A DNA stretch of 64,000 nt from Eubacteriaceae bacterium ES3. GTDB lineage: Bacteria > Bacillota > Clostridia > Eubacteriales > Eubacteriaceae. Position 1 is the first letter of the stretch. The number at the start of each line of letters is the position of its first letter. The position numbers and the translations under genes are program-made. Below the pieces are notes generated by a model. The model saw only the letters and a list, made by a program, of their open reading frames with translations, searched no databases and was not told where the DNA came from. Where the stretch lies: contig CP130741.1 of the NCBI GenBank assembly GCA_030586155.1, forward strand, positions 1,172,680-1,236,679. Direction: 5' to 3'. Shown piece by piece: positions 9,338-62,523 of this stretch.

Positions 9338-10804
9338 TTGATTGAAGGCATAAAATCATACTATGAAGAAAATAAAGCCCGTTATACAACTATTACAGAA
9401 AGTGAATGTGAAACGATTATTTCAGCAACACTTGATGTGATGGAAAGAACAGCACAGATTATTGGAGATCCAGAAACATTGGAGATTCTAAAACAAGCTG
9501 GATGTCCGGTTGACGGGAAAAAAGTAACAATTCCTAGAGAATTGGTTAAAAAAGCTATTGAAACGGCACCAAGTTCCTTTACTTTTTATAATCGTAATGG
9601 AGAACCAGCTTTAGAAGTTGGCGGAAATAACAGTTATTATGGTCTTGGACCAACTAATCCATATTTTTGTGATTTCGAAACCCAGGAAAGACGAACATCT
9701 GTTTCTGACGATACAAAGAATTGCATGATCGTTGCAGATTATCTTTCAAACATTGACTTTGTCATGTCGCTTTCAGGTTCGAATGATGGACCAGCTAATA
9801 ATGCTGAAGTCCTGGAAATGAAAATGATGCTTGAAAATACCACAAAACCAATTGTTGGCTGGGGAAATTCACCTGAAGGTATTGAAGAAATAGTTGAAAT
9901 GTGCGGTGCTGTTGCCGGTAGTGTTGAAGCATATAAGGAAAAACCTTTTGTGGCTATTTACGTTGGTGATCCAGTTACACCGTTGCAGCACCCCAAAGAT
10001 TCACTGGAAAAACTTTTATATTGTTGCAAAAATAATATTCCGGCAATCTATTTATCAGATTCGCAACTGGGAACATTATCACCTGTAACCCTGGCTGGTT
10101 CTGTTGTACTTGGATTGGCAGAAATTTTAACTGGACTGGTTATTAGTCAGTTGGTTAATGAAGGTTGCGTTTATGTAGGTGGTGTTATCAACTTGAGTGT
10201 TGATATGAAACCAGTTAATGTCTGCTATGGTAGTCCGGAATTTTGTTTAGGTAATGGCGCTTGCTATGATGTGTTGCACTATTTGAATTTACCAATTTGG
10301 GGAACTGCTAACATTACAGATTCAAAATTTGTGGATGAACAAGCAGCCATTGAAGGTTCTATGACAAGTCTTACATCCTGTTTAAATGGAGCAAACCTGA
10401 TTCATGATGCTGGTTTTATAGAAGGTGCTATGTCAGCTGCTCTGGAACAGATTGTTATGAGCAATGAAATTATCTCTTATGCTCGAAGAGTACGAGCTGG
10501 AATGGAAATTAATGAGGAAACACTTGCCCTGGATCTGATTGACCAGGTTGGTGCTGGTGGGACTTATATAACTGAATTGCATACTTTAAAACATTTTAAA
10601 GAAGTATGGGAATCAACATTGTTTGATCATGCCATTTTTGATCCGGAAGTTAAATTCACAAAAATGTCTGAACGTATTAAAGTCAGAGTTTCAGAAATAC
10701 TGGAATCGCATCAACCGGAAAAACTGGCGCCAGAAACAATTAATAAATTAGATGACATTTATAAAGAATCACTAGCTAGAATGAAGAGACAGAAAAAAAA
10801 TTAG
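9338..10804 (+). CDS. MttB-family (non-pyrrolysine) methyltransferase 2
   Basis: A 488-residue trimethylamine methyltransferase-family protein without an in-frame amber codon. I place the start at the TTG at 9338 because GAGAGGAG lies 8 bases upstream; two in-frame TTG codons further up would put the ribosome site inside the gene. It is the most divergent of the three paralogues here (for example ERTAQIIGDPETLEILKQAG in place of the QHKGA-type sequence), which suggests a different substrate. It shares the corrinoid protein at 7008 by position and is followed by the BCCT transporter after 44 bases. Confidence 0.87.
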   Translation: MIEGIKSYYEENKARYTTITESECETIISATLDVMERTAQIIGDPETLEILKQAGCPVDGKKVTIPRELVKKAIETAPSSFTFYNRNGEPALEVGGNNSYYGLGPTNPYFCDFETQERRTSVSDDTKNCMIVADYLSNIDFVMSLSGSNDGPANNAEVLEMKMMLENTTKPIVGWGNSPEGIEEIVEMCGAVAGSVEAYKEKPFVAIYVGDPVTPLQHPKDSLEKLLYCCKNNIPAIYLSDSQLGTLSPVTLAGSVVLGLAEILTGLVISQLVNEGCVYVGGVINLSVDMKPVNVCYGSPEFCLGNGACYDVLHYLNLPIWGTANITDSKFVDEQAAIEGSMTSLTSCLNGANLIHDAGFIEGAMSAALEQIVMSNEIISYARRVRAGMEINEETLALDLIDQVGAGGTYITELHTLKHFKEVWESTLFDHAIFDPEVKFTKMSERIKVRVSEILESHQPEKLAPETINKLDDIYKESLARMKRQKKN

Positions 10805-36569: not shown

Positions 36570-37577
36570 TTAATAATCGACCTTTTTATTTGGAGCCTCT
36601 GTCATACTAACAATTGCCTGCTGTTTTTTCTGGATTCCGCTATTGTTGTCAACTTTTGAGCTGGTTTCCCAAAACCCCAAAGCAGTTGTAGCAAAGATCC
36701 CACCAAAAATAATCAGGAATACAATAAATGATAGAATGGCAGGTTTTATTTTCACAACATTATTTTTTGCAGCAATTTGCAGATCAAGGGTATCAGTTTT
36801 AGGGCAGTTGGCGCTAGAAGTGCATTTCATACAACTGATGCAATTGAGATTAGAGACAATTTCATTCTGACAAACATTTATTTGCATAGGACAAATTCTA
36901 GTACATTTTTTGCAATCGATACATGTATCGGTATTTCTTTTCAATTTAAAAATTCTGATCTTATTAAAAAGTCCTAAAATGGCGCCATAAGGGCAGGCAT
37001 ATTTGCACCAGGGCCGTTCAACAAAAAGCGATAAAATAATGATCGTTAAAAGCAGTATCAGTGCCTGAGTGGCAACAGTGCCAGTCCAGAATTTGAAAAG
37101 AGCATGATAAGGGTCTAGGTTAATAAAGAGAAGAGTTCCCGATTGGGCGGTTATGTATAATACCCAGGCTAGGACGAAATAGCGGAAGAATCGCAGAATA
37201 TTATGAATATTCTGGGGTATAAATTTATTATACTTTTTTTTGAACAGTTTTTTTCCAAGTAGTCCTATCAACTCCTGAAATGAACCCAGCGGGCAGACCC
37301 AACCACAAAAAACAGGTCCGAAAAAAAGTGCCAATAAAAAAATAAGGCCCATTAGAATCAATGAAGAGCCAGCAACCTTTTCGATAAGCATTCCAGAAAT
37401 TATAAAAGAATAAAGTGTTTCTACGCCACCAAATGGACAAAGAGCATGAAGCGATGCTGTTGCTAGAATTGGGATACCCAAACCAATTTGCGATAGTGTT
37501 TTATTGACAGAGATTAATGCAATCAGAATAAAGAAGAAGATTTGAGTTATTAATCTGTAATTAAAGTTCTTTTTCAT
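36570..37577 (-). CDS. NapH/YccM-like membrane 4Fe-4S protein
   Basis: A 335-residue polyferredoxin with about five membrane segments. Membrane-associated cysteine motifs are CGWVCPLGSFQE and CKYACPYGAILG, each of the C-x3-C-P type seen in NapH, NosR and CcoG-like proteins. Two soluble 4Fe-4S motifs follow: CIDCKKCTRICP and CISCMKCTSSANCP (the second has an enlarged last spacing). A C-terminal membrane segment and a short tail end it. It probably carries electrons between a cytoplasmic ferredoxin and a quinone-like or extracytoplasmic partner, which is not encoded next to it. The start at 37577 follows TTGGAGG. Confidence 0.82.
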   Translation of the reverse strand: MKKNFNYRLITQIFFFILIALISVNKTLSQIGLGIPILATASLHALCPFGGVETLYSFIISGMLIEKVAGSSLILMGLIFLLALFFGPVFCGWVCPLGSFQELIGLLGKKLFKKKYNKFIPQNIHNILRFFRYFVLAWVLYITAQSGTLLFINLDPYHALFKFWTGTVATQALILLLTIIILSLFVERPWCKYACPYGAILGLFNKIRIFKLKRNTDTCIDCKKCTRICPMQINVCQNEIVSNLNCISCMKCTSSANCPKTDTLDLQIAAKNNVVKIKPAILSFIVFLIIFGGIFATTALGFWETSSKVDNNSGIQKKQQAIVSMTEAPNKKVDY

Positions 37578-37767
37578 AAATACCTCCAATTAATATTTCA
37601 TTTGTATTATAGAATTATGACGTGACAATTTAGTGTCAAAAAATTAAATTGATTAAATAGAGTGCAAAAAGTTGAAGTGTATTATATAATTGTGCATATA
37701 TTTAATTTTTTATAATGAAATTAGTAATATGTTATATATTAAGCATTTAGAGAGTTGGGATGAGGTT

Positions 37768-47095: not shown

Positions 47096-48079
47096 TTGAA
47101 TGACAAAAGTGGATTGGAATTATCTACACAAAGTCTTATTGATGCAGCTATAAAACGTAATCTCACTGTTGAGGTTTTAGATCGCGCAGATAATTTTATT
47201 AGAATAAAGAAGAATGAAAAAGTTGAATATATTAAGCAGGCAACCAAAACTGCTTTGGACCCATACATTGTACCCTTAATAATGGAAAACAAGGAAATTA
47301 CCAAACTGATATTGAAGGAAAAAAATATCAATGTTCCTGCAGGAGTTAGCGTTAATTCCTTGGAAGAGGGGCTAAAATTATTTCCTGACTGGGAAAATAA
47401 AGCTCTGGTGATCAAGCCTAAGAATACTAATTTTGGAATTGGCATAACTATTATTAAAGAATTGAAAGCACGGGATGATTTTCAAGAAGCCCTGCAATTT
47501 GCCTTTTCCTATGACAAAACCGTTCTGATTGAAACCTTTATTCCGGGAAAAGAATATCGTTTTCTTGTCATCGGTGATGAAGTTGCAGGGATTTTGCATC
47601 GGGTACCAGCTAATGTAAAAGGTGATGGAGTTAGAACGATTAGTGAGCTTGTTATTGAAAAAAACAAAGATCCTTTGAGGGGAAAAGGGTATGTCACCCC
47701 TCTTGAAAAAATTAATATTGGGGAAACTGAGATCGGATTTTTAAAGGCTGATAACAAAACGATCGAGACAATACCTGCTCAGGAAGAAATTGTTTATCTG
47801 CGGGAGAACTCCAATATTAGCACCGGAGGTGACAGCATTGATTATACAGAAATAATTGGGGATGATTATAAAAATATTGCTATTGCTTCAGCTCAGGCAG
47901 TCGGTGCAAAAATTTGCGGTGTTGATATGATGATTAATGATATTACAGAAAATGCGACTAAAAGCAATTACAGCATTATTGAGCTGAATTTCAACCCTGC
48001 ATTACATATTCATAATTATCCCTTTAAGGGTAAAAACAGGCATGTTGAAGAAAAAATTCTTGATCTTCTAGGTTTTTAA
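47096..48079 (+). CDS. stand-alone GshF-type ATP-grasp ligase
   Basis: A 327-residue protein matching the C-terminal ATP-grasp half of bifunctional glutathione synthase GshF: LSTQSLIDAAIKRNLTVEVLD at the start, then ATKTALDPYI, the MENK-x-x-TK-type segment, the ATP-binding VIKPKNTNFGIGI, and RENSNISTGGDSIDYTE near residue 235, ending in an ELNFNPALHIHNYP active-site-like stretch. The N-terminal glutamate-cysteine ligase half is absent and no trace of it is found upstream. The TTG start follows GAGGAG by 9 bases. It may join an amino acid to a gamma-glutamyl or other dipeptide; the substrate is unknown. Glutamate decarboxylase follows after 162 bases. Confidence 0.75.
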   Translation: MNDKSGLELSTQSLIDAAIKRNLTVEVLDRADNFIRIKKNEKVEYIKQATKTALDPYIVPLIMENKEITKLILKEKNINVPAGVSVNSLEEGLKLFPDWENKALVIKPKNTNFGIGITIIKELKARDDFQEALQFAFSYDKTVLIETFIPGKEYRFLVIGDEVAGILHRVPANVKGDGVRTISELVIEKNKDPLRGKGYVTPLEKINIGETEIGFLKADNKTIETIPAQEEIVYLRENSNISTGGDSIDYTEIIGDDYKNIAIASAQAVGAKICGVDMMINDITENATKSNYSIIELNFNPALHIHNYPFKGKNRHVEEKILDLLGF

Positions 48080-48241
48080 AGAATATTTGAAAGGCTATTG
48101 CAGTAGCGACGAAGAAATTGGTTGTTAGTTGTAAAGTAAAACCCATGTCTAATTTGGGCGACCTTTTGATACCTGGAATTCTGTTTAAAATCGACGATAT
48201 TGTCTGTTTGAAATAAAAAGTTTATCATTGAGGAGGAACAA

Positions 48242-49642
48242 ATGCTACATTCAAGACCAGATGAAAAAGAGTTTGACAAGGATTGTTACCATGCATCCGT
48301 ATTCAGTGAAGAAGTTCTAAGCTTTCCCAAATATCATTTAAATGATGAATCGGTTGACCCGGAGCTGGCCTATCGAATTATTAAAAATGATTTAATGGAT
48401 GAAGGCAACGCAAGACAGAATCTGGCAACTTTTTGCCAGACTGATATGGAACCGTGGGCAACTCGCCTGATGTCAGAAACTCTGGAGAAAAATGCTATCG
48501 ATAAGTCTGAGTATCCGCAGACGGCTGACTTGGAAAAAAGGTGTGTAAACATATTAGCTGATTTATGGAATGCCCCCAAGAAAAGCTCCTTCATTGGGAC
48601 ATCAACAGTTGGTTCATCAGAAGCATGTATGCTTGGTGGAATGGCGATGAAATTTCGTTGGCGAAAAGAAGCTGAAAAAAATGGACTCGATATTTACAGA
48701 AAAAAACCAAACCTGATAATCTCTTCAGGCTTTCAGGTATGCTGGGAAAAGTTCTGTGTCTACTGGGACATTGAATTAAGGACTGTGCCTGTTGAGGAAA
48801 AACATTTGTCTCTGAATCTTGATACGGTGATGGATTATGTGGATGATTATACTATTGGAATTGTGGCGATCATGGGGATTACCTATACCGGAAAATACGA
48901 TGATGTGAAGCGCCTTAATGAGCTGGTGGAAGAATATAATCAGACAGCCAGTTATAAAGTGCCTATCCATGTGGATGGAGCGTCGGGCGGGATGTTTACG
49001 CCATTTGCTTTTCCAGACCTGGAATGGGATTTTAGATTGTCAAATGTCATCTCCATTAATACTTCAGGCCACAAATATGGACTGGTTTACCCGGGAATCG
49101 GCTGGATCATCTGGAAGGATCGGGAGTATGTTCCGGAAGAACTGATTTTTGATGTTTCTTATCTTGGCGGGGACATTCCCACAATGGCGATTAATTTTTC
49201 CCGGTCGGCCAGTCAGATTATTGGGCAATATTTTAATTTCCTTTCTCTTGGCTTTTCCGGTTACCAGCACATTCAAATGCGAACGCGTAATGTTGCCATG
49301 TATATTGCTTCCGAAATTGAGAAAACCGGGTTGTTTGAGATTATCAACGACGGAGACAATATTCCAATCGTTTGCTGGAAAATGAAAGTTGAGAAGCAAT
49401 GGAACCTTTATGATTTGGCCGATCGTTTACGGATGAATGGCTGGCAGGTGCCGGCCTATCCGCTGCCGGAAAATATGGAAGAGACTCTGATTCAGCGAGT
49501 AGTGGTGCGTCAGGATCTAAACCGGCAGTTGGCATCACTATTTATTGAAGATTTTAATCGTGCCATTGATGATTTGAATCATGCCCGAATTCTTTTCAGT
49601 TCACCTGAAGATGATGGAAAAACATATGGATTTACCCACTAA
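48242..49642 (+). CDS. gadB: glutamate decarboxylase
   Basis: A 466-residue PLP enzyme of the group II decarboxylase family, normal GadA/GadB length. The PLP lysine is in NTSGHKYGLVYPGIGW near residue 280, and the HVDGASGGMF segment (the Asp holding the cofactor ring) lies near 245. It converts glutamate to GABA, consuming a proton and so aiding acid resistance. No glutamate/GABA antiporter is in the window, which is unusual for an acid-resistance unit. GGAGG precedes the ATG. Confidence 0.95.
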   Translation: MLHSRPDEKEFDKDCYHASVFSEEVLSFPKYHLNDESVDPELAYRIIKNDLMDEGNARQNLATFCQTDMEPWATRLMSETLEKNAIDKSEYPQTADLEKRCVNILADLWNAPKKSSFIGTSTVGSSEACMLGGMAMKFRWRKEAEKNGLDIYRKKPNLIISSGFQVCWEKFCVYWDIELRTVPVEEKHLSLNLDTVMDYVDDYTIGIVAIMGITYTGKYDDVKRLNELVEEYNQTASYKVPIHVDGASGGMFTPFAFPDLEWDFRLSNVISINTSGHKYGLVYPGIGWIIWKDREYVPEELIFDVSYLGGDIPTMAINFSRSASQIIGQYFNFLSLGFSGYQHIQMRTRNVAMYIASEIEKTGLFEIINDGDNIPIVCWKMKVEKQWNLYDLADRLRMNGWQVPAYPLPENMEETLIQRVVVRQDLNRQLASLFIEDFNRAIDDLNHARILFSSPEDDGKTYGFTH

Positions 49643-49674: not shown

Positions 49675-50238
49675 TTAACTATATGTGGCGTAGTATTCTT
49701 GTTGAGCATTTGAAGCTTTTTGCTGACCTCTTCCGCAACGGGGATTAATCAGAGAACAGTTTTTGCCGCAACCACCACAACGCAGTTGGGAAAGGTATTC
49801 GTTTAAGGTTGGGACAACGGGATCCGGTTCAGTGACAACTGTCTGACTGTCAGATGCGGTTTCATCAGGAACTATAATTTCGTCTTCCTGAACAGGAGCT
49901 GCCGATGCTATGGATTCTTCAGAAACACTTGACTCCTCGGTGACCGATTGAACAGGGGCAGCAGCTTCTGTTGTCGCAGTTTCAGTAGTTTCTGTAACTG
50001 CCTCCGTCGTTTCGGTAGTTTCTACCACTTCAGCCGGAGTTGTCTCAACAACTACTGAAGGCGTGGTAATTTCAGTATCGACATCATCTACAGTTTCACC
50101 GACTAAAACAATATCAGGGGATTCAACCTGTGCCGCTAGAACACTCTGATAAGAGCGATAAGTTGTTGAAATAATTCCATATACAATCAGAATCGATGCG
50201 ATCGCTGCGCCAAACTGCTTAAATATTTTTAATTTCAT
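49675..50238 (-). CDS. membrane-anchored Thr/Glu-rich protein with C-terminal cysteine cluster
   Basis: A 187-residue protein I do not recognise. An N-terminal membrane segment (about residues 8-28) is followed by a long low-complexity Thr/Glu/Val/Ser linker (about 55-145) with the repeated unit TTE-x-x-x-TTET, and a tail with four closely spaced cysteines, CGGCGKNC, and a fifth in NPRCGRG. The layout is of an extracytoplasmic domain held away from the membrane or cell wall by a flexible stalk. The cysteines could bind an Fe-S cluster or metal or form exchangeable disulfides. It is the last gene of the six-gene operon, 14 bases after the thiol-transporter-like gene, so it may be the receiver of its electrons. 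Confidence 0.65.
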   Translation of the reverse strand: MKLKIFKQFGAAIASILIVYGIISTTYRSYQSVLAAQVESPDIVLVGETVDDVDTEITTPSVVVETTPAEVVETTETTEAVTETTETATTEAAAPVQSVTEESSVSEESIASAAPVQEDEIIVPDETASDSQTVVTEPDPVVPTLNEYLSQLRCGGCGKNCSLINPRCGRGQQKASNAQQEYYATYS

Positions 50239-50252
50239 AATTCCTCCGAAAT

Positions 50253-50921
50253 TTAAAGATTTGAAAGTGCATTAAAGCTTAAAACGGTAATTAGTATATA
50301 AGAAGCAAGTTGAAACCACCTTATATATTGTGGGATTTCTTTTTTCATCCGACCGGATAGGACTCCGGAAATTAATACCATTAAAAGAACCGGTGTTAAA
50401 GTGCTGGCCAGAGTAAAAACAAAACCAACCAGTATTGCTGATGAAACAGATAGGGTGGCACAAAGACCAATCATCAGAATCAGTGGACTGCAGGGGGTGG
50501 CACCATAGGTAAAGCCAGCCATAAATAGCGGAACGATCCCTTTAGCGTCTATCTTTTTTTCACCGGAACAGGAACTGCAGTTTTTGTTGGGATTTTTGGC
50601 ATCAATGATCCATTTGCCGATTAAAATAATGCCCAAGCCAATCATCGAAATCTGCATTACAAGTTGCAAGTTAATATTTCCTAGATAACCGGAATCATCA
50701 ATAAACTGATTGCCTAAAGCGGCGGCAACAGCACAGATCAATATCACGGAAGTAATTTTTCCAGATACAAAACTTATAAATGAGAGAATTGATTTTTTCA
50801 TCCCACCGGAATGAGAAATAATATAGGTGGAAAGAAAAATACTCACTGTGGGACTGCAGCAGGTGCCGCAGCTCAAGCCAACAGATACTGCTGTAGTTAA
50901 AATGGGAAGAAGGAGTTCCAT
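50253..50921 (-). CDS. CcdA/DsbD-like (TauE/SafE-related) membrane thiol transporter
   Basis: A 222-residue membrane protein with about six segments. Two symmetric cysteine motifs lie in membrane helices: CGTCCSP near residue 18 and ATPCSP near residue 145. They match the paired P-C/C-x-P motifs of CcdA/DsbD, which pass electrons from cytoplasmic thioredoxin across the membrane. A cytoplasmic loop carries NCSSCSG, another C-x-x-C. The start at 50921 follows GAAAGGGG, two bases from the stop of the ATPase gene. The cysteine pattern favours electron transfer over sulfite or metal export. Confidence 0.75.
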   Translation of the reverse strand: MELLLPILTTAVSVGLSCGTCCSPTVSIFLSTYIISHSGGMKKSILSFISFVSGKITSVILICAVAAALGNQFIDDSGYLGNINLQLVMQISMIGLGIILIGKWIIDAKNPNKNCSSCSGEKKIDAKGIVPLFMAGFTYGATPCSPLILMIGLCATLSVSSAILVGFVFTLASTLTPVLLMVLISGVLSGRMKKEIPQYIRWFQLASYILITVLSFNALSNL

Positions 50922-50922
50922 A

Positions 50923-51708
50923 TCAGCCCCTTTCGCTGGCAATTAAAGCGGCTCCGATAGCCCCGTTAAATTGCGGGTGTCTAGCCACATAGACGTCGCG
51001 CATCATTTCTTCTTCAAAAGCCTTATGGACTCCGATGTTTAGGGCGCCACCGCCAGTCATAAGGATATCGCCGCCTTTTTCAGACTTTTTCATCATCTTG
51101 ATGATTCGTTTGGCCATCGATAGATGCATTCCAGCCAGAATATCCCGGCGATCATATTTTCGGGCAACCAGGGAGATGACCTCAGACTGGGCAAAGACCA
51201 CACAAGTGCTGTTAATATCGCAAGGGGTTTTACTTTCCAGTGATAGTGGACCAACCTGGTCAATGGTTGTTTCCAGAATCTGGGCGATTACTTCCATAAA
51301 TTTACCGGTTCCAGCAGCACATTTGTCGTTCATGGTAAAATTCTTAACGGCATAATTAGGGTCAAGATAAATAATCTTTGAGTCCTGGCCACCAATATCA
51401 ATAATCATCCCCGGTTTGTATTCTTTGGGAGCTGTCACACGAACACCATAGGCGTGGGCAGTAATTTCAGAAATATCGTCATCAGCTACATCAAAAACTT
51501 TGCGGCTGTAGCCGGTGGCCATAATGTATTTGATATCTGCACGACCAATCCCCCGTCGTTGACACATTTTTCCAATCAGTTCAATCGCTGATGTGTTATT
51601 GTCTATTCCAGTGTTGGTAACCATGGCATCAACAACCTGATTGCCATGTAAAAGTGCAGCTTTCGTATAAGTGGACCCGCCGTCAAGGCCGGCATAGTAA
51701 TTTTTCAT
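50923..51708 (-). CDS. HgdC/BcrAD-like ATPase activator (ASKHA, 4Fe-4S)
   Basis: A 261-residue activator ATPase of the 2-hydroxyacyl-CoA dehydratase and double-cubane-protein systems. Motifs: N-terminal GLDGGSTYTK, DIGGQDSK near residue 105, NDKCAAGTGKF (first cluster cysteine, about residue 128) and STCVVFAQSEV (second cluster cysteine, about residue 167). In the family one 4Fe-4S cluster is held between two subunits by these cysteines, and ATP hydrolysis drives one low-potential electron into the partner. It lies 10 bases downstream of the cysteine-rich HgdB-like gene, its obvious partner. Confidence 0.9.
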   Translation of the reverse strand: MKNYYAGLDGGSTYTKAALLHGNQVVDAMVTNTGIDNNTSAIELIGKMCQRRGIGRADIKYIMATGYSRKVFDVADDDISEITAHAYGVRVTAPKEYKPGMIIDIGGQDSKIIYLDPNYAVKNFTMNDKCAAGTGKFMEVIAQILETTIDQVGPLSLESKTPCDINSTCVVFAQSEVISLVARKYDRRDILAGMHLSMAKRIIKMMKKSEKGGDILMTGGGALNIGVHKAFEEEMMRDVYVARHPQFNGAIGAALIASERG

Positions 51709-51718
51709 TGTTAGCTCC

Positions 51719-53002
51719 TTATTTTTTCTGTAAATCTTTCAGTTTAATGAGTTCGATAAAAGCTTCAATACGAATTCTCAGCTGTTCAATATCTTCTTCA
51801 TTGTAGTCACTTTCGACCCTGATTATGGGGATATTCATTTTACCCAGTTCCTCTTCAAGGGTCTGATATTCAAAATCATAAACCAGGCATCCGCGCAATA
51901 CATGATAGACAACCCCTTCGACCTGATGGTCTTTGATCATCTGTTTAATCCTGTAAATTCGCTGATTGTTGTCGACAAAAGTTGGACAGGTACAGGGACG
52001 GGTATAGCGGTTGGCCAGGGCCCTCATCATTCCATCAAAGCTCTGGTCTACAACTACCGACGGATCATACATGGCACGTTCTCCCATACAGGTTTCATCG
52101 GCCACTAAACTACCGCCCATTTCTTCAATTAGCAGGGGAATTTTAATATTGGGAAAGATGATAGGAGACCCGGTTACCATTAGTCGAGGCTCTTTTTTCT
52201 GACTCACAAATGCTTTGGCTTTTTTTCGTTTTGCCAGTTCCTGATTAAGCAGATACAGTTTTTCACTCCATTCATCAATAGGCATATAGGAAGATGCATT
52301 CATAATAGCCATAGCATGGGTCCCCTTTATTAAAGCGGGGACATTTTTTTTGTATTCGTTAAATTGTGACAGCTGATATTGAGCAAAGCCAACTTGGTCC
52401 ATACTTTCAGAGAGGCTTTTATGAGTAACGTTCTTACCGGTTGCTGCTTCCAATGCCGGGATCAGCTCGTAGAGTTCATTAAGGACCTGTTCCAGGTCGG
52501 TGTCATCTTCTTTAGATGTGGGGATATGAAAGGAGTGGACAGGAACCAGGTCTTTTAACATACCAGCCATTTTCTTCTTACAATCGCAGGTGATGGGAAA
52601 AACCATCATCGAGCAGTCATCATATATTGGCATCACGCCCATAGTCTGGTAGCCCATGACAGCTTTAACCAGTGGGCAGGCATCTCTGGGAACCAGGTCA
52701 TCGCCGATGTAAAAAGCTGTATAACTGCCGCTGCAGAGTTTGACAGGTTGGGCTCCAGCAGCATAGATCAGCTCCTGAGGAACCATGACACAGTAAGTAC
52801 CGATCAGCGGTTTTTCAATAGAAAAGCTTGGACCATCCATATTGACATAAATATTTTCAAGTACATCGAGAAATGGTTTTAAAGCATCCGGAGCTCCTTT
52901 GAGTTCACTGAGTCGCCTTAGATATTTGCCTGAGACACGGGTTGCTTTTTCTATAAATCGCTGTCTTTGTCGTTCTTCTGATGGTGTAAGGTTTTTATTC
53001 AT
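51719..53002 (-). CDS. HgdB/double-cubane-cluster-type reductase
   Basis: A 427-residue 2-hydroxyacyl-CoA dehydratase D-component-family protein. Cysteines at conserved-looking places are LCSG, DACPL, ITCDC, ETCMGER, RPCTCP and LRGCLVYDFE, enough for a 4Fe-4S or a double-cubane [8Fe-9S] cluster. The ATG at 53002 is chosen over an upstream in-frame codon because AAAGGA precedes it; its first bases overlap the end of the polyferredoxin gene. Only one full-cysteine subunit is present together with one activator, as in the double-cubane proteins (homodimers), not the two-subunit dehydratases. No CoA-transferase or acyl-CoA gene adjoins, which argues against a fermentation dehydratase. The substrate is unknown. 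Confidence 0.82.
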   Translation of the reverse strand: MNKNLTPSEERQRQRFIEKATRVSGKYLRRLSELKGAPDALKPFLDVLENIYVNMDGPSFSIEKPLIGTYCVMVPQELIYAAGAQPVKLCSGSYTAFYIGDDLVPRDACPLVKAVMGYQTMGVMPIYDDCSMMVFPITCDCKKKMAGMLKDLVPVHSFHIPTSKEDDTDLEQVLNELYELIPALEAATGKNVTHKSLSESMDQVGFAQYQLSQFNEYKKNVPALIKGTHAMAIMNASSYMPIDEWSEKLYLLNQELAKRKKAKAFVSQKKEPRLMVTGSPIIFPNIKIPLLIEEMGGSLVADETCMGERAMYDPSVVVDQSFDGMMRALANRYTRPCTCPTFVDNNQRIYRIKQMIKDHQVEGVVYHVLRGCLVYDFEYQTLEEELGKMNIPIIRVESDYNEEDIEQLRIRIEAFIELIKLKDLQKK

Positions 53003-54752
53003 CACTTTTTTTCCTTTTTTTAATCTGACGTTTAAGTATGCGCTCGTTTTTCCTGTAACCCGACATAAAGGTTTTACGTGATGCCCGGTAAAAAGGGATT
53101 CCACAAAAGCTCATATAAAGGGCATTATTTTCCGGACATTTATCAACACAGGCACCACACATAATACAATCACTGGTGGTCACGTCTTTTTTCGTTCTTT
53201 CAGTATAGATACTCTTAATGCCCATGGGACAGGCTTCATAGCAGGCACCGCATTCAGTGCAGGCCTGACAGTCTTTTTTGAGTTTAAACAGCGAAATCTT
53301 ATGGAACAGCCCCATCAGATAGCCAAGGGGACAGATAGTACAAAAGAAACGGCGTTTGAAGAAACCGGAAATCAGTACAAAGACCATCATAAAACCGCTT
53401 AAGTAGAGGCTTAATTTAAATCCGGCAAAAGCAGGTGAAACGGTAATGGCAGGACAGATGTCACAGAAATTACCACCGACAAAACATAGGACTAAAAAGA
53501 TCAGAAGCATAACCCATTTGATTGGAGTGGTATTCTGATAGATTTTCTCATCAAAGTAAACACCTTGGATTTTAAGCTTCCGGCGAATCCAGTCAAAAAT
53601 ATCCTGAATCAGTCCCATCGGACAAAGAAAGCCACAAATAATTCGTCCCAAAATAACCAGTGAAGCCAGGAATGATCCGACAAAGATCAGAATTTCCTGC
53701 CAGGTCATGTCAAACAGGGTGTTTAAATGGGACAAAGTGTAGCAGGAGGAGCCGATCAGCTGATCCTGATTAATGGGGCAGGAAAAGATTGGAATCTCCA
53801 GGTTTTGATACCAGGTGCCCAGAATTTTGCCACCAAAAATCAAAAGAAAAAAGCTTAAAAGCATAATAATCCAGCGAAAATTCATTAAACCAAACCGCTT
53901 TTGGCCCTCTACTATTCCACTTGAACCGATGTTTCGATCATCTGATAGAAAACGCCCCATAACCGGGTCCTTTAAAAGAAGTCGACGTCGAAGAGCAAGA
54001 CAAATTACAATCCCCAGAACTGTCAAACCAATAATTATGAATAATGGTGTGAGCGCCGATAAATAGCGCATTGAAAAGAGGGTGTTATCCTCAACCTGAT
54101 AGTGCATTTGATATACAGTTTCATCATTTTCAAAATAGGTCACAAGAATACCGCTGCGAATATCGAGAATAGATAAATCGCTGATTTCACCATTCTCATT
54201 GCTAGTGTATTCTGCCTCGCCACTTCTTTCAGAGTAAACGGACACTGTTTGATTAGCCAGTGGCTCACCATTGAAGTTTAATGAAATTGTAGTCCGATCT
54301 GTAAAAATGACTTCAAATGGGAAGAGTTCACTGTCAAATGAGGGCGCAACTGGTCGGTAACCCTGGGTGAATTCCATATCGGTCTTGGCGGTAGAATATA
54401 AGGTTTCATCTTGACCGTCTTGATTAAGATCTGTTGTCTGTTCAGGTATGGTTGCAATAAAACTTCCTAAATAATCGGAATTCAAAGAATTCATATTGTC
54501 TTCTGTCATTTCCGCAATACCTTCGACGCTTAGAGCGTAAAGACTTATTTCATCAGACGGGGAATTAAGAATTATTTCGTTATTGCTATAAGAGAAGGAA
54601 AGAAGATCACTCTCAGTATTTTCAGAAACAGTATAACCACTGGCATCTGTACTAAAGTTGTAAAACTCAAATACATACGCGAAAAAAGCCAATACACACA
54701 GTACTACAGATATTATTAAAATGGGAGGGGTAAATAGTTTTTTTAATCTCAT
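52995..54752 (-). CDS. membrane polyferredoxin with extracytoplasmic beta-sandwich-like domain
   Basis: A 585-residue protein. After one N-terminal membrane segment comes an extracytoplasmic part of about 200 residues with a calcium-loop-like DLNQDGQDE and a repeat of the NGEPLANQTVSVYS...NENGEIS type that resembles DUF4198/carboxypeptidase-regulatory-like beta-sandwiches. A NapH-like membrane core follows with CGFLCPMG, CDICPA and CTICPLG motifs, then two 4Fe-4S sets (CQACTECGACYEACP and CIMCGACVDKCP). There is no FMN-binding motif such as that of NosR. The gene overlaps both neighbours (4 and 8 bases), so it is translated together with the two HgdB-like proteins. Probably carries electrons to or from the HgdB/activator pair. 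Confidence 0.8.
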   Translation of the reverse strand: MRLKKLFTPPILIISVVLCVLAFFAYVFEFYNFSTDASGYTVSENTESDLLSFSYSNNEIILNSPSDEISLYALSVEGIAEMTEDNMNSLNSDYLGSFIATIPEQTTDLNQDGQDETLYSTAKTDMEFTQGYRPVAPSFDSELFPFEVIFTDRTTISLNFNGEPLANQTVSVYSERSGEAEYTSNENGEISDLSILDIRSGILVTYFENDETVYQMHYQVEDNTLFSMRYLSALTPLFIIIGLTVLGIVICLALRRRLLLKDPVMGRFLSDDRNIGSSGIVEGQKRFGLMNFRWIIMLLSFFLLIFGGKILGTWYQNLEIPIFSCPINQDQLIGSSCYTLSHLNTLFDMTWQEILIFVGSFLASLVILGRIICGFLCPMGLIQDIFDWIRRKLKIQGVYFDEKIYQNTTPIKWVMLLIFLVLCFVGGNFCDICPAITVSPAFAGFKLSLYLSGFMMVFVLISGFFKRRFFCTICPLGYLMGLFHKISLFKLKKDCQACTECGACYEACPMGIKSIYTERTKKDVTTSDCIMCGACVDKCPENNALYMSFCGIPFYRASRKTFMSGYRKNERILKRQIKKRKKSDE

Positions 54753-56005
54753 ACAGCTTTCCGTTTGTCCTTATATTGATTTTGTGTAAGCACTTCCATA
54801 AATGCTTCCATTCTTATTCTGAGCTGTTCAACGTCCTGATACTGATAATCAGTCTCAAGTCTAAATACCGGGATTCCTACATCAGAAAAAAGTTTTTCAA
54901 AACGCTCCAATTCAAAATCGTATTCGATTTGCCCTTTTAAAACATGAAAAATGACCCCATCAATTCTCCCCTTTCGCAGATGCCAGGAAGCACTTTGATA
55001 TAGCATTTCATTTTTTGAATATGCTGAAGAACAGTCGTAGCGCAGTTGAGAAAAAACTACCGCTGTAAAAAGATCTACTTCCTGATGTTCCTTTTTAGAG
55101 CCGGAATAAATTTTTTGTGTCGTTGAATCGAGGGTAGCTTCAATATTCATGCCAATATCTTCAACGAGGAAAGGTATCTTATAATTTGGCATAAACACAG
55201 GTGATCCCATTAAAAGAACTGAGGGTTTATTGGTATTCTTATAAGGGGTACAATTTAATATTTCTATCAGCTCGAGATTTAAGTTTTTAAGATGTTGGCA
55301 ATAACTTCTTAAATCACTGGTGTAATAATAGGCGTTTAGGACTGCCATCCGAGTTGAACCATTTATATATTGCCCAGCTTGTTCACAAATGCTGATAAAC
55401 TCTGCCATCAGTCCTCTAGCCTGATTAACCCGCTTCGTTGCAGATTGCAGACTTTTTTTTGTAATTTTCGTTCTGGTGTGATCAGAAATTTTTTCCGAAA
55501 GCTTTTTCATCTCTTGTGTCCATTTGATGCCGGCCAGGGGATCGGTCTTATCTGGAGGAACATCGACAGTGATTACTTTTTTTCCAGAATTTTTAAGAAG
55601 CCAAGCCATTTTACGGTTAGAATCACAGGTGACTGGACAAATAATCAGCGCATTTTCGGTAAGGTTGAAAGTATCATTTAAAAGGAATCCAAGCATTGAA
55701 CGACTCACCGGGTCGGTATCTCTGGGAACAGAATCATCTGACCAGTTAACGGCTCCTTGACTTCCACCAAGAATATAGAAAGGTTTGGATCCGGCAGCGT
55801 ATATCAGTTCTTCGGGAATTCCTGACCCCATGACGATGATGTCCGGCTTGTGATTTAGCATTTGCTGTGGCTTAAAATAAGAATATATGATATTAAAAAA
55901 GTAATGGAGCTCTTTTGATGAAGGGCTGTTTTGCATCAGTTTTTTGAGTGTGTTCAGATATTCTTCCTCGTAGTCTGTAAACTTAGTTTTATCAGTTTGA
56001 TTCAT
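54749..56005 (-). CDS. HgdB-like paralogue with most cluster cysteines lost
   Basis: A 418-residue homologue of the protein at 51719, aligning along its whole length (for example PEELIYAAGSKP with PQELIYAAGAQP, and QLRIRMEAFMEVL with QLRIRIEAFIELI). Where that protein has LCSG, DACPL, ETCMGER and RGCLVYDFE, this one has ILGG, DTDPV, LDSTTQ and KGQIEYDFE. Only the C in VTCDS and one in YDCSS line up. It cannot bind the same cluster alone and may be a structural or substrate-binding partner. It is the first gene of the operon; AGGAGG precedes the ATG. Confidence 0.8.
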   Translation of the reverse strand: MNQTDKTKFTDYEEEYLNTLKKLMQNSPSSKELHYFFNIIYSYFKPQQMLNHKPDIIVMGSGIPEELIYAAGSKPFYILGGSQGAVNWSDDSVPRDTDPVSRSMLGFLLNDTFNLTENALIICPVTCDSNRKMAWLLKNSGKKVITVDVPPDKTDPLAGIKWTQEMKKLSEKISDHTRTKITKKSLQSATKRVNQARGLMAEFISICEQAGQYINGSTRMAVLNAYYYTSDLRSYCQHLKNLNLELIEILNCTPYKNTNKPSVLLMGSPVFMPNYKIPFLVEDIGMNIEATLDSTTQKIYSGSKKEHQEVDLFTAVVFSQLRYDCSSAYSKNEMLYQSASWHLRKGRIDGVIFHVLKGQIEYDFELERFEKLFSDVGIPVFRLETDYQYQDVEQLRIRMEAFMEVLTQNQYKDKRKAV

Positions 56006-57501: not shown

Positions 57502-57547
57502 GAGTGTTTGAAGGGTAATGATTCATTTTTATTTAGGAGGAATGTTA

Positions 57548-58555
57548 ATGCTAACAAAACGTCAAAATCTTATGGAAACGATTAAAGGTGGAAACCCTGA
57601 TCGGTTTGTCAACCAGTATGAAGCTTTTGTCTGTACAGACGCGATTTATGGAATGATCATGGCTGATCCCATTTCTATCCAGGGGGGATTTCCGATGCCA
57701 GGAGGAGAACCGGTAAAAAATGCCTGGGGTATTACATTTGCGTGGCCAGCAGGAACACCGGGTGCCTTTCCACTTCACGATGAAGAACACAAAGTACTTA
57801 AAGATATCACTAAATGGCGTGAAGTAGTTAAAATGCCAAAGACAGATTTTCCACCAGAAGCATGGGAACCGTTTATGCCAATGATTGATGCGATTGACAG
57901 AAATGAAGTATTTACAACCTGTTTTGTAGCACCAGGTGTATTTGAACAATGCCATCATTTAATGGGTATGGATGATTGTCTTTTGAATTTCTATGAAGAA
58001 CCTGAAGAAATGCATGCACTGATTGATTATATTACTGAATATGAACTGAAATATGCTGCTGAACTGATTAAATATTATAAACCGGATTGTATTTTCCATC
58101 ATGATGATTGGGGTTCTTCAATTAGTTCCTTCCTGTCACCAGACATGTTTAACGAGTTTATCGTTCCTGCATACAAAAAAATCTACGGATTCTATAAAGA
58201 AAATGGCGTTGAATTAATTGTTCATCATAGTGATTCCTATGGAGCTAATCTGGTTCCATCAATGATTGAGATGGGAATTGATATCTGGCAGGGATGTATT
58301 TCTAATAATAACGTTCCTGAACTGATTAAAGAATATGGCGGTAAAATTTCTTTCATGGGAGATATCGACAATTCACTAATTGACCGTGAGGACTGGACCC
58401 AGGAAAGCGTAGGCGCTGAAGTTCGAAAATCTGTTGAACGTTGTGGAAAACATTATTATATTCCATGCATTACTCAAGGTGGACCAGGTAGTGTTTATCC
58501 AGGAGTTTACGAAGCGATAACTGCTGAGTTAGAAAAAATTAATTCTGAAATGTAG
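57548..58555 (+). CDS. UroD-family methyltransferase
   Basis: A 335-residue UroD-superfamily protein. An HHDDWGSS segment near residue 190 and VHHSDSYGANLVP near 225 give histidine- and acid-rich surroundings often seen in the methyltransferase branch, including the methyl-transfer enzymes of aryl O-demethylases. The start is the third of three clustered Met codons (57548), 7 bases after AGGAGG. It is alone, with no corrinoid protein beside it, so it must share one from elsewhere, possibly those at 7008 or 14220. Its promoter and structured leader suggest tight control. Confidence 0.75.
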   Translation: MLTKRQNLMETIKGGNPDRFVNQYEAFVCTDAIYGMIMADPISIQGGFPMPGGEPVKNAWGITFAWPAGTPGAFPLHDEEHKVLKDITKWREVVKMPKTDFPPEAWEPFMPMIDAIDRNEVFTTCFVAPGVFEQCHHLMGMDDCLLNFYEEPEEMHALIDYITEYELKYAAELIKYYKPDCIFHHDDWGSSISSFLSPDMFNEFIVPAYKKIYGFYKENGVELIVHHSDSYGANLVPSMIEMGIDIWQGCISNNNVPELIKEYGGKISFMGDIDNSLIDREDWTQESVGAEVRKSVERCGKHYYIPCITQGGPGSVYPGVYEAITAELEKINSEM

Positions 58556-59092: not shown

Positions 59093-59149
59093 TTGTACAT
59101 CAAATGTTCTTAAACGAAACTTTACAATTAAATAGCTGGTATGGATGAA

Positions 59150-59318
59150 GGATACGGGAGAGATTGTTTTTACAACACCGAAGGAATAAGCGGTTAACTA
59201 AGCCATAGTAATCGTGATGATCTCAGGTAAAGGGGACCGTAACCGGACATAACTCTGGAAAGCGTAGCACCGAAGGGGCAACCTCTATATAGGGAGAATC
59301 TCTCAGGTTAATAACAGA
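59150..59318 (+). ncRNA. tandem glycine riboswitch
   Basis: Two aptamers in series. The first (about 59150-59243) has GGGAGAG, CACCGAAGG and ATCTCAGGTAAA. The second (about 59250-59318) has ACTCTGG, GCACCGAAGGGGCAA and TCTCTCAGGTTAATAACAGAG. These are the conserved parts of the gcvT element. The 3' strand of the second aptamer's closing stem abuts the terminator, so glycine binding would decide whether transcription continues. It sits directly before gcvH and fits glycine-induced breakdown. Confidence 0.95.
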
Positions 59319-59477: not shown

Positions 59478-59855
59478 ATGAAAATTGTTGAAGGTTTAAA
59501 ATATTCAAGTGATCATGAGTGGGTAAAAGTAGAAGGTGAAAAAGCCTATATTGGTATTACAGATTTTGCACAACATTCTCTAGGTGATATCGTATTTGTT
59601 GAACTTCCGGAAGTTGGCGATGAAATTGAAAAAGAAGGCGTTTTTGGAACAGTAGAATCTGTTAAAGCAGCATCTGATGTGTTTCTACCTGTTTCTGGTA
59701 AAGTAGTAGAAGTTAATGAAGCTTTGGTTGATGAGCCAGAACTTGTAAATGCAGATGCATTTGAAAATTGGATGGTTTGCGTTGAGCTGACAAATCCTGA
59801 AGAACTTGATGAATTAATGGACGCTGCAGATTACGAAAAAATCTGTGTCGAATAA
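59478..59855 (+). CDS. gcvH: glycine cleavage system H protein
   Basis: A 125-residue lipoyl carrier of normal length. The lipoyl-lysine motif E-S-V-K-A-A-S lies near residue 64. It carries the aminomethyl group from the P protein to the T protein. AGGAGG precedes the ATG. It is the first gene after the riboswitch and 25 bases before the gcvT-SHMT fusion. Confidence 0.97.
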
Positions 59856-59880
59856 GTCTTTATAATAGGAGGAAGATTGG

Positions 59881-62523
59881 ATGCAGGAATTAAAACGTAC
59901 CATATTTTATGATTGTCATGTCAAAGCTGGAGCTACATTAGTTGATTTTGGTGGTTGGGAAATGCCTATCAACTATCCAGCCGGAATTGTTGATGAACAT
60001 ATTTATACTCGAACAAAATGTGGGATTTTTGACGTTTCACATATGGGTAGATTTATTGTTTCCGGAAAACAGGCCACCGAGTTTTTACAACATGTATTAA
60101 CTAATAATGTTCTGGCTTTGGATCTTTTACAATCTCAATATACAATGATTCAAAATGAAAACGGCGGAGCTTATGACGATGCTTACCTTTACCGTTTTTA
60201 TGAAGATGAATATTTGCTTGTAGTTAACGCTGCTAACATCGAAAAAGACTGGAATCACCTACAGGAAGAAATCAAGGCTTTTGATGCAAAAATGGTTGAT
60301 CGTTCCAGTGAAATTGGAATGATTTCTGTTCAGGGACCGGAATCAAAAAATATCATTCAGGCACTGACTGGAGAGCGTTTTTTAACAGAACCATTAAAAA
60401 ATGCTTTAGGAATTCTTACATATAAAGGTGAAGAATTAAAATTGGCGCGAACTGGTTATACAGGTGAACCATTAGGACTGGAACTGTTTACCGTAAAATC
60501 TCAGGCAGTTGAAATCTGGGAAAAATTACTTGAGCTGGGAGCAAAAGAAACAGGTCTTGGGGCTCGAGATACGCTTCGATTAGAAGCAGGTCTTCCTTTA
60601 TATGGTCATGAATTGGGCCTTGATATTGATGGTAAGGAAATTCCGATTTTTTCTTGTCCGTTGGCAAAATTCGCAGTCAGCTTTTCTGATGTAAAAGGTG
60701 ACTATATTGGTAAAGCAGCTCTGGAAAAACAATATATTGGCTTTAAAAAGATCATGGAACGGGATTTCTCTGATTTCTCAAATCTTGAAAGAATTGTCCG
60801 TCCAATCGCTTTAACAGGCAAAGGCGTTGCCCGAGCCGGCTGTAAAGTATTTAAAGATGGTAAAGAAGTTGGATATATTACCAGTGCAACTATGGTACCT
60901 TATCTGGTAGCCAAAGGATACGGTCTGGACAGCAAAATTACTGACGAAAAAGCAAGACGTTCAATTGGTCTGGCACTGGTTGACGGCGATGTTGAGTTTG
61001 ACGATGAAGTAAAAGTAGAAATCCGTAACAAGATGGTAGATGCTGTTATTGCTCCTTACCACATGAAAGGTGATGCGCCACCATATGCGCGACCGATTAT
61101 TTATGGCGTTGAAATTGAACTTGATTACAGCAGCAGTGATGATTATCATACAAAAGCACTCAATCTCCTCGAAAGAAGTTATGAAAATACCATTCACAGA
61201 CAACACGAAACTATTAACCTGATTCCTTCAGAGATGTCAATTTCTGCAGCAAGCCGAATATTATCAATAATGGATCCTGCAATGCGATATGCTGAACACA
61301 AGAAAACAAAATCTTTCTATGATTTTGATGTATTCTATTATCAGGGAACTGCGTTTATTGATGAAATTGAACACTTACTGATGGAAGAACTGAAAAAATA
61401 TTTCGGTTGTGCTGAAGTAGAAACCCGAGTTGTCAGCGGACAGATGGCAAACATGGCTGTGTTTAGCGCACTGATGGATTACAAAAATCGCGTTAATCGA
61501 AAAGTGGACCCATTGCGATTAGGCTATGTTATGAACAACCACATTATAAAAGGCGGACATTTAAGTGCACAGCCAATGGGTGCTTTACATGACTATATTG
61601 CTGTTGATCCTAAGACTGAGAAAAAGGCGGTTGTTAATTTCCCGGTTGAAAGAGACAATCAGTACAAGATTGATGTTCCTGAAACGAAAAAACTGATTGA
61701 ACAATACAAACCGGAGCTAATTATCTTTGGTAAAAGTATGGTGCTTCATAAAGAACCTGTAGAAGCAATTCGAAAGTTTGTTGATGAACAGAATATTAAA
61801 ACAACCATCATGTATGATATGGCACACGTTCTGGGTTTGATTGGTAAAAACTTCCAGGATCCATTTGCAGAAGGTGCTGATCTGGTTACCGGTTCTACAC
61901 ATAAAACTTTCTTTGGAACTCAAAGAGGGGTTATCGCCGGAAACTACAAAAAAGAAGATTACGATTATGCATTATGGGAAACGATTGAAACTCGTGCTTT
62001 TCCTGGTAGCGTAAGTAACCATCACCTGGGAACCATGTTAGGTTTGTTAATGGCAACTTATGAAATGAATAATTTCAGAGACGAATACCAGAAAAATGTT
62101 ATTGATAATGCAAAATACTTTGCCAAATGTCTGGCTGACGAAGGTCTTGACGTTGCGGGCGATCCTGCAATTTCTTACACAGAAACACATCAGGTTGTTG
62201 TACGAGTCGGTTATGGAATTGGACCAGATGTTGCAAAACGTCTTGAAGAAAACAACCTGATCATTAATTACCAAGCAACTCCAGAAGAAGAAGGCTTTAC
62301 CGCTTCAGGAGCGATTCGAATTGGAGTTAATGAGATGACACGCTTTGGATTTGGTTTTGACGAATTTAAACAAACAGCAAAATTAATGGCAGATGTTATT
62401 TTACGAAATAAAGATGTTAAAGATGACGTTGTCGAGCTGAAGCAGAACTTCAAAGATCTGAAATACTGTTTCACAGATGAAGATATCATGAAACAGTTAG
62501 ATAAACTGAAGGCTACACTATAA
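59881..62523 (+). CDS. glycine cleavage T protein fused to a serine hydroxymethyltransferase-like domain
   Basis: An 880-residue fusion. Residues 1 to about 405 are aminomethyltransferase GcvT (VDFGGWEMPI, FDVSHMGR, GARDTLRLEAGLPLYGHEL). Residues about 412-880 are a PLP enzyme of the SHMT type: NLIPSEM for NLIASEN, and GSTHKT with the PLP lysine at about K675. It is divergent: canonical G-x-P-G-x-R-Y-Y near residue 475 is replaced by KSFYDFDVFYYQG, and there is no T-T-T-H-K. GcvT releases methylene-THF and ammonia; SHMT can use it with glycine to make serine. No stop or frameshift separates the halves. GGAGG precedes the ATG. Confidence 0.88.
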   Translation: MQELKRTIFYDCHVKAGATLVDFGGWEMPINYPAGIVDEHIYTRTKCGIFDVSHMGRFIVSGKQATEFLQHVLTNNVLALDLLQSQYTMIQNENGGAYDDAYLYRFYEDEYLLVVNAANIEKDWNHLQEEIKAFDAKMVDRSSEIGMISVQGPESKNIIQALTGERFLTEPLKNALGILTYKGEELKLARTGYTGEPLGLELFTVKSQAVEIWEKLLELGAKETGLGARDTLRLEAGLPLYGHELGLDIDGKEIPIFSCPLAKFAVSFSDVKGDYIGKAALEKQYIGFKKIMERDFSDFSNLERIVRPIALTGKGVARAGCKVFKDGKEVGYITSATMVPYLVAKGYGLDSKITDEKARRSIGLALVDGDVEFDDEVKVEIRNKMVDAVIAPYHMKGDAPPYARPIIYGVEIELDYSSSDDYHTKALNLLERSYENTIHRQHETINLIPSEMSISAASRILSIMDPAMRYAEHKKTKSFYDFDVFYYQGTAFIDEIEHLLMEELKKYFGCAEVETRVVSGQMANMAVFSALMDYKNRVNRKVDPLRLGYVMNNHIIKGGHLSAQPMGALHDYIAVDPKTEKKAVVNFPVERDNQYKIDVPETKKLIEQYKPELIIFGKSMVLHKEPVEAIRKFVDEQNIKTTIMYDMAHVLGLIGKNFQDPFAEGADLVTGSTHKTFFGTQRGVIAGNYKKEDYDYALWETIETRAFPGSVSNHHLGTMLGLLMATYEMNNFRDEYQKNVIDNAKYFAKCLADEGLDVAGDPAISYTETHQVVVRVGYGIGPDVAKRLEENNLIINYQATPEEEGFTASGAIRIGVNEMTRFGFGFDEFKQTAKLMADVILRNKDVKDDVVELKQNFKDLKYCFTDEDIMKQLDKLKATL

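Follow-up and report, generated by a model that had tools for sequence, protein, structure and literature searches.

What could a bacterium do with a double-cubane reductase whose genes are packed together with those for a membrane polyferredoxin, a CcdA-type thiol transporter and a cysteine-tailed stalk protein? The question is raised by a minus-strand operon of Eubacteriaceae bacterium ES3, which we studied in a window of 64,000 nucleotides (the whole stretch analysed, positions 1,172,680-1,236,679 of the 3.39-Mb single-contig genome). An earlier note, made by a model from the letters alone, had described six compact genes here, and all six were confirmed, with overlaps or gaps of 14 bases or fewer (hgdB2, napH, dccp, hgdC, ccdA and stalk; Table 1). 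Both HgdB-like products belong to the HGD-D family and the others to BcrAD_BadFG/CoA_E_activ, the NapH-like Fer4_5 class and DsbD_2; the stalk was assigned no Pfam family. What double-cubane proteins do in the cell is acknowledged to be unknown (PMC11971306). Comparison of loci across genomes shows, at the level of gene linkage, that the double-cubane protein DCCP, its activator HgdC, hgdB2 and NapH form a co-inherited core, that in most forms the core is joined by CcdA and has a NapH with four cysteines predicted to face outwards, and that a subset adds a four-cysteine tail. We tentatively read this assembly, with chances that fall just short of even, as a membrane-coupled, ATP-dependent double-cubane reductase in which electrons would pass from NapH to HgdC to DCCP, with hgdB2 as a partner and with an outer redox arm.

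The DCCP-type reductase and its activator, both named by the earlier note, proved genuine. All six cluster cysteines are present in 81/81 operon DCCPs, and the window protein (P0004) aligned with 6eno and with BzdN at all six ligand positions; in BzdN the [8Fe-9S] ligands are Cys36/73/100/263/293/327, and the [4Fe-4S] ligands of BzdO are Cys95/128/380 (PMC11971306). The match to 6eno/7yyl (E 2.4e-59) extended across the HGD-D domain. Further invariant cysteines of DCCP are C90 and C339, and C141 is typical of the main type. HgdC scored 225 bits against TIGR00241 (cut-off 125.4) and has 4eht and 1hux as structural relatives, with C130 and C169 kept in 75/75 proteins. HgdC-type activators take electrons from ferredoxin and, using ATP, inject them into an HGD-D partner. 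The DCCP and DCCP reductase of Carboxydothermus hydrogenoformans (6eno, 7yyl) share the six cluster cysteines and the adjacent HgdC-type ATPase; however, that DCCP is described as a soluble homodimer with a cluster in each subunit, unlike the present system, which has a co-inherited ligand-less duplicate, a membrane ferredoxin, usually CcdA, and C141 as an extra invariant cysteine. A further mark of the DCCP class is ATP-dependent reduction of acetylene and azide.

Relatives were collected by scanning one genome per species with a DCCP alignment, which gave 168. Locus statistics refer to the best 80 of these 168, found in Acetobacterium, Anaeromicropila populeti, Ruminococcus albus, many rumen and gut Ruminococcus, Oscillospiraceae and Lachnospiraceae, and linkage counts take in only loci where the contig extends far enough. 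The earlier note had proposed a search for conserved co-occurrence of the six families, and for five of the genes linkage in these loci was near-perfect: dccp was accompanied by an adjacent hgdC in 67/67, by ccdA in 66/67, and by napH and hgdB2 in 60/61 each, the napH count bearing out the claimed membrane coupling. The genes likewise stay neighbours in relatives, a point on which the note had staked its reading: ten same-genus genomes carry the operon in the same gene order, whole or contig-cut (G001, G003, G004, G005, G006, G008, G011, G013, G016 and G018), and the set is conserved in many other Clostridia. The same-genus genome G002 has an operon fragment, and the operon is absent from some others of the genus, such as G010 (best match about 30% identical). 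Flanks vary within the genus, with GadB/GshF-like genes in the window and G006, TetR and a transporter in G005 and G011, and DNA polymerase downstream in G001, G003, G008 and G013. Since the operon recurs in differing flanking contexts within the genus and is kept in many other Clostridia, it is not a chance arrangement. Inter-family distances were correlated for all pairs tested (NapH excluded; rho 0.57-0.88, permuted maximum 0.19), part of which is expected from shared ancestry alone, and the trees and clades of DCCP and hgdB2 are broad mirror images. A full NapH occurred in 2/391 genomes of a class sample, both Acetobacterium, and in about 3/295 of an order sample around a Lachnospiraceae genome, the centre genome counted. 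As the operon profiles found hardly any more complete operons in phylum and class samples, the system is patchy, not universal.

The two HgdB-like proteins that the earlier note recognised do both carry the HGD-D domain, but the second, hgdB2, is not a cluster protein, its ligands being gone. The ligand columns of the window protein hold G60, D98, C127, S294, D324 and Q359. Among 69 aligned sequences D98 and Q359 are invariant (69/69 each), G60 is kept in 67/69 and D324 in 59/69, position 127 is Ser, Asn or Cys (Ser or Asn in most relatives) and position 294 is Tyr or Ser; Lys357, which replaces a neighbouring arginine, is present in 68/69, and no cysteine is conserved among the 69. DCCP C109 corresponds to D98, C372 to Q359 and C139 to the Ser/Asn/Cys column, and two of the three BzdO-type cluster positions are an invariant Asp and Gln in hgdB2. 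D98, K357 and Q359 are also kept in the two other operon types described below. Since the replacement is invariant, and not drift, the site appears to have been reused, and the pattern argues for a ligand site that was emptied and then refilled. The pairing of DCCP with this conserved paralogue suggests a heterodimer. BzdNO and HadBC are likewise diverged HGD-D pairs with an activator, and the BzdN-type [8Fe-9S] ligands match those of DCCP, but their second subunit binds a catalytic [4Fe-4S] cluster on three cysteines where hgdB2 has D, S/N/C and Q. Stepwise cluster loss has been described for the series DCCP, BzdNO, HAD and TudS (PMC11971306).

NapH consists of an N-terminal transmembrane segment, a DUF4198-like extracytoplasmic beta domain, five further transmembrane segments and a cytoplasmic 2[4Fe-4S] domain. 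Exactly 16 of its cysteines are invariant in 68/68 operon proteins: the C-terminal 2[4Fe-4S] domain contains eight, the inner CP motifs (C373/C377 and C471/C474) account for four, and the last four form two pairs predicted to lie outside (Table 1). The CP motifs and the eight ferredoxin cysteines, complete in all 68, fit the NapH-like Fer4_5 class, and the score against NapH TIGR02163 was 89.9 bits, under the curated 213.05. In E. coli NapH the other twelve cysteines aligned and none of the four outer ones, of which two NapH-like paralogues in the ES3 genome keep the C325 equivalent only. The window itself encodes a second NapH-like protein (about 36570-37589, minus strand, 339 amino acids), which does not have C337 and C430/C433. 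We infer that the four outer cysteines may hold a further cluster, and the full set suggests a NapH with a complete transmembrane chain of clusters.

An AlphaFold2 model of NapH reached a predicted local distance difference test score (pLDDT) of 84.6 and a predicted template modelling score of 0.81, and a Foldseek search matched its N-terminal domain to DUF4198/Zcp (E 3.5e-6). The extracytoplasmic domain that the earlier note had pointed out is present in the window protein but dispensable, since four Acetobacterium and most Ruminococcus members do without it. DUF4198-type metal binding by it was considered and rejected: there is a fold match alone, the domain is often missing, and the window copy has a single histidine, with none near the domain start. 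As to flavinylation, Pfam gave no FMN-binding domain and the operon holds no ApbE. Both NapH-like and DsbD proteins are known as modules that carry electrons across membranes (PMC8238504). Such NapH-like systems share with the operon protein the two inner CP motifs, the 2[4Fe-4S] domain and, in some, an N-terminal extracytoplasmic domain, whereas the operon NapH differs from them and from flavinylated systems in its four extra outer cysteines, a DUF4198-like in place of an FMN-binding domain, and its DCCP and HgdC partners.

The loci fall into three architectures. Type A, that of the window, comprises hgdB2, napH, dccp, hgdC, ccdA and an optional stalk. Type B (G036, G494 and G715) comprises a divergent Crp/Fnr-type gene (3/3), hgdB2, a gene for a small transmembrane protein resembling the N-terminal membrane part of NapH, a short napH that lacks the outer cysteines, dccp and hgdC; these three loci contain neither ccdA nor stalk. 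Type C (G970, G994 and G869) comprises hgdB2, the small transmembrane protein, a napH with four outer cysteines, dccp, hgdC and ccdA, to which two of the three add an immunoglobulin (Ig)-like membrane protein. Outer NapH cysteines and CcdA thus go together, types A and C having both and type B neither, in keeping with the outer cysteine or thiol branch that the earlier note had proposed, and type B shows that the core can stand without the outer arm. One type B locus (L183:1171-6887, in G494) lies beside genes for the hydroxylamine reductase Hcp, a ferredoxin and two Crp-type proteins, a possible link to nitrosative stress.

CcdA matched DsbD_2 (1.1e-12, 48.7 bits against a cut-off of 24.9) and has the C-C-S-P and P-C-S-P motifs ascribed to it. 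Its conserved cysteines (P0002 numbering) are C19, C22, C23, C64, C116, C119 and C145; those near transmembrane segments 1 (C19/C22/C23) and 4 (C145) are redox cysteines in common with known CcdA/DsbD_2 members, from which the operon protein differs in a vicinal cysteine pair, in an extra conserved CxxC in the loop between segments 3 and 4 (CxxCxxC in many) and in having no thioredoxin-like partner in the operon. Its model had a pLDDT of 74, and a structure search gave no hit, to CcdA/DsbD or otherwise, at E<=0.001. A weak similarity to RnfE/NqrE was dismissed because C155, common to both, is not conserved.

The stalk has one N-terminal transmembrane or signal segment, a Thr/Glu-rich linker and a C-terminal four-cysteine tail, as the earlier note described, but it is an optional part. 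Its gene is present in 37 loci, where it is either the last or the first of the operon or lies upstream in divergent orientation; the four cysteines are invariant throughout, and a tail-like sequence was found nowhere in 13 stalk-less genomes, in a search that recovered its positive control. The same tail is found, terminally or internally, in DUF4405 (b561-like) membrane proteins at loci without the operon (G023, G047 and G043; Table 1). Heme has been shown in DUF4405 b-type cytochromes, and Flavodoxin_4, FMN_red and DUF4405 are reported among the extracytosolic electron-transfer proteins associated with flavinylation (PMC11334425). In 41 fully covered loci, a Flavodoxin_4 gene lies near 9/17 stalk-less and 0/24 stalk-bearing operons (Fisher p 7e-5), an association confounded by phylogeny; most of these flavodoxins have a lipobox. 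Together these data favour a redox function of the tail outside the cytoplasm but do not prove it; the tail is apparently an unnamed extracytoplasmic redox module.

Taken as a reductase, the system would work as follows. The cytoplasmic 2[4Fe-4S] domain of NapH would be a dedicated electron donor to HgdC, which with ATP would drive electrons into the [8Fe-9S] cluster of DCCP. DCCP and hgdB2 would form a heterodimer like BzdN-BzdO, with the refilled D98/K357/Q359 site holding the electron-receiving substrate or a docking group. The inner (C373/C377/C471/C474) and outer (C325/C337/C430/C433) sets of NapH may carry two further clusters as a transmembrane wire, which CcdA and the cysteine tail, or an exported flavodoxin in some Lachnospiraceae, would join to an extracytoplasmic thiol or redox pool. 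The order NapH to HgdC to DCCP is the most economical, as HgdC takes ferredoxin electrons and a 2[4Fe-4S] ferredoxin domain makes up the end of NapH, and what is known of HgdC-type activators favours electron flow from membrane to reductase. A more specific form, in which an outside carrier (the four-cysteine tail or exported flavodoxin) would supply electrons of moderate potential, made more reducing at HgdC and then led through the [8Fe-9S] cluster to chemistry in the cluster-less HGD-D subunit, is in our view rather improbable.

The direction of flow might also be the reverse, as in the earlier note's device coupled to an outer acceptor, with HgdC and DCCP lowering the potential of electrons that NapH then exports to a thiol or Fe-S group borne by the stalk. 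CcdA-type proteins normally carry reducing equivalents outwards, and the outer cysteines of NapH and the cysteine tail would suit such a device; there is also precedent in the double cubane of BzdN, an electron transfer and storage cofactor (PMC11971306), and in the ATP-gated relay through nitrogenase-like clusters to a distant site in the methyl-coenzyme M reductase activation complex (PMC12176620). That complex is similarly ATP-dependent and uses large nitrogenase-type Fe-S clusters as an electron path, but it is archaeal and soluble, and its proteins are unrelated to those of the operon. Export cannot be the core function, because type B retains the entire core without CcdA, stalk or outer cysteines; the known recipient of electrons from HgdC, moreover, is its partner protein and not a ferredoxin, and no outside acceptor is known to require so low a potential. 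We consider outward flow unlikely. The co-occurrence of outer NapH cysteines and CcdA could instead mean that CcdA, with or without the stalk, keeps those cysteines reduced or loads a cluster there, while DCCP acts as a cytoplasmic reductase. Holding outer cysteines reduced is the classical CcdA role, yet the four-cysteine tail on operon-free DUF4405 cytochromes looks like a redox partner and CcdA has its extra CxxC; such a maturation kit is, again, rather improbable.

What the heterodimer reduces bears on two further proposals. It might detoxify small N- or O-species under stress, with a protective outer branch: azide and hydrazine are substrates of DCCP in vitro (PMC11971306), type B has its Crp/Fnr-type gene and one locus its Hcp neighbour, redox neighbours include LysR, FMN_red, Flavodoxin_4 and aldo/keto reductase, and the window holds an AhpD-like CMD (under its cut-off) and a glutaredoxin. 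Hcp, however, was a neighbour once only, regulators vary by lineage (LysR, two-component, Crp), and the divergent glutaredoxin at 56216, also considered as a partner and rejected, is absent in the closest operon-bearing relative, so we think this role quite unlikely. A CcoG-type function, in which NapH would reduce Cu or Fe with the help of the DUF4198-like domain and a metal-binding tail, draws on the resemblance of that domain to the metal-binding DUF4198/Zcp fold and on CcoG/RdxA, a cupric reductase that is likewise a polyferredoxin and has an Ig-like outer domain (PMC7558416). In CcoG that domain sits at the opposite end, and only the operon NapH has an attached ATP-driven cytoplasmic reductase; many operon NapH proteins do without the domain, whose window copy is so poor in histidine, copper reduction does not need an ATP-driven low potential, and no metal transporter is linked. 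We judge metal reduction very improbable. Finally, the HGD-D and HgdC families would suit an ordinary 2-hydroxyacyl-CoA dehydratase that has its own activator and relies on a distant CoA-transferase, but hgdB2 is without the three cysteines that hold the HadB/BzdO catalytic cluster, DCCP has six conserved ligands, not three, and no acyl-CoA pathway gene recurs near the operon. Classical dehydratase chemistry is contradicted by this ligand census and the absent CoA genes, as the earlier note had anticipated, and we give it almost no credence.

Several points weigh against the membrane-fed reductase as well. Its support is at the level of sequence, and the direction of flow comes from family knowledge. 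The sidedness of NapH was deduced from hydropathy and the positive-inside rule together with the inner CP motifs, and the outer cluster is a prediction from conserved cysteines. The loci were chosen by DCCP similarity, so that linkage holds within one DCCP subfamily, and outer cysteines and CcdA are correlated across a small number of deep lineages (three loci each of types B and C). The DCCP match to the double_cubane equivalog NF040772 (6.7e-97, 324.8 bits) is under the 350-bit cut-off, a type B member scoring 269.9 bits, and the stalk is dispensable.

Table 1. Coordinates of the operon genes and of the features discussed. Positions are those of the window unless a locus is named.
Feature	Position	Strand	Details
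hgdB2	56005-54749	minus	418 amino acids; Pfam HGD-D 4.2e-54
napH-like	54752-52995	minus	585 amino acids; 4-base ATGA overlap with hgdB2
dccp	53002-51719	minus	ATG start; 427 amino acids; 8-base overlap with napH
hgdC	51708-50923	minus	261 amino acids; 10-base gap after dccp
ccdA	50921-50253	minus	ATG start; 222 amino acids; 1-base gap after hgdC
stalk	50238-49675	minus	187 amino acids; 14-base gap after ccdA
Intrinsic-terminator-like hairpin	49672-49647	minus	26 nucleotides, then T's; operon end
napH outer pair C325...C337	53742..53780	minus	Loop between transmembrane segments 3 and 4, predicted outside; 68/68
napH outer pair C430-x2-C433	53454..53465	minus	Between transmembrane segments 5 and 6, predicted outside; 68/68
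Stalk Cys tail C-x2-C-x3-C-x6-C	49735..49779	minus	C154, C157, C161, C168; invariant 38/38
dccp cluster cysteines			C71, C109, C139, C305, C337 (or C339), C372; cysteine census
hgdC cysteines			Cluster cysteines C130, C169; extra invariant C163; census
DUF4405 tail proteins	L187:4296-5120, L188:5440-6549, L189:4999-6108		Tail shared with stalk

The hairpin at the operon end has a stability of -19.2 kcal/mol (z -6.4), equalled in 0/200 shuffles, and was not picked up by a generic terminator scan; a promoter scan gave nothing above shuffled sequences. A TTG at 50942 is an alternative start for ccdA. Beyond the hairpin lies a stand-alone ATP-grasp gene (47096-49642, plus strand) that by eye resembles the C-terminal part of GshF and adjoins a glutamate-decarboxylase-like gene; the pair is kept beside the operon in G006. 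A few kilobases upstream of hgdB2 is a UroD-like methyltransferase gene (57518-58555, plus strand), 85-87% identical to genes near the operon in several Acetobacterium with otherwise differing flanks (L035, L038 and L049); it was rejected as a component, as it is not near the operon in other genera. A glycine riboswitch (59145-59249, plus strand) precedes a stretch (59478-62523, plus strand) with GcvH and an open reading frame of 880 amino acids that by eye reads as GcvT fused to a serine hydroxymethyltransferase-like domain. Far from the operon, an Rfam match to PYLIS_3, the pyrrolysine insertion sequence of mttB (10313-10412, plus strand; 42.6 bits against a gathering score of 38), raises the possibility of a pyrrolysine-containing trimethylamine methyltransferase in this acetogen. 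A defence role was also considered and found no PADLOC match. Two literature leads were set aside: the paper on the isoprene reductase of A. wieringae cites double cubanes as an analogy only, and the type 1 mlp clusters that mention DCCP belong to a selenium/methyl-transfer context.

The earlier note knew of no described system with this gene set, and a full-text search, outside which most subscription papers lie (the original DCCP paper and a review included), found no published description of it. All parts except the stalk belong to known families; novelty appears to lie in the assembly as a conserved whole, in the refilled HGD-D subunit and in the NapH with outer cysteines. A cluster-free subunit would add a branch to the DCCP-BzdNO-HAD-TudS series, and the cysteine tail suggests a recurring extracytoplasmic four-cysteine module without a Pfam family. 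If an outside-fed, ATP-boosted reductase were true, it would be a new bioenergetic machine and would extend the fold to a use beyond those in DCCP, BCR/HAD and TudS. The occurrence of operon-bearing and operon-free genomes within one genus offers natural comparisons, and by linking DCCP to a membrane electron donor, to a partner stripped of ligands and to a redox arm on the outside, the operon provides a testable handle on the role of the double cubane.

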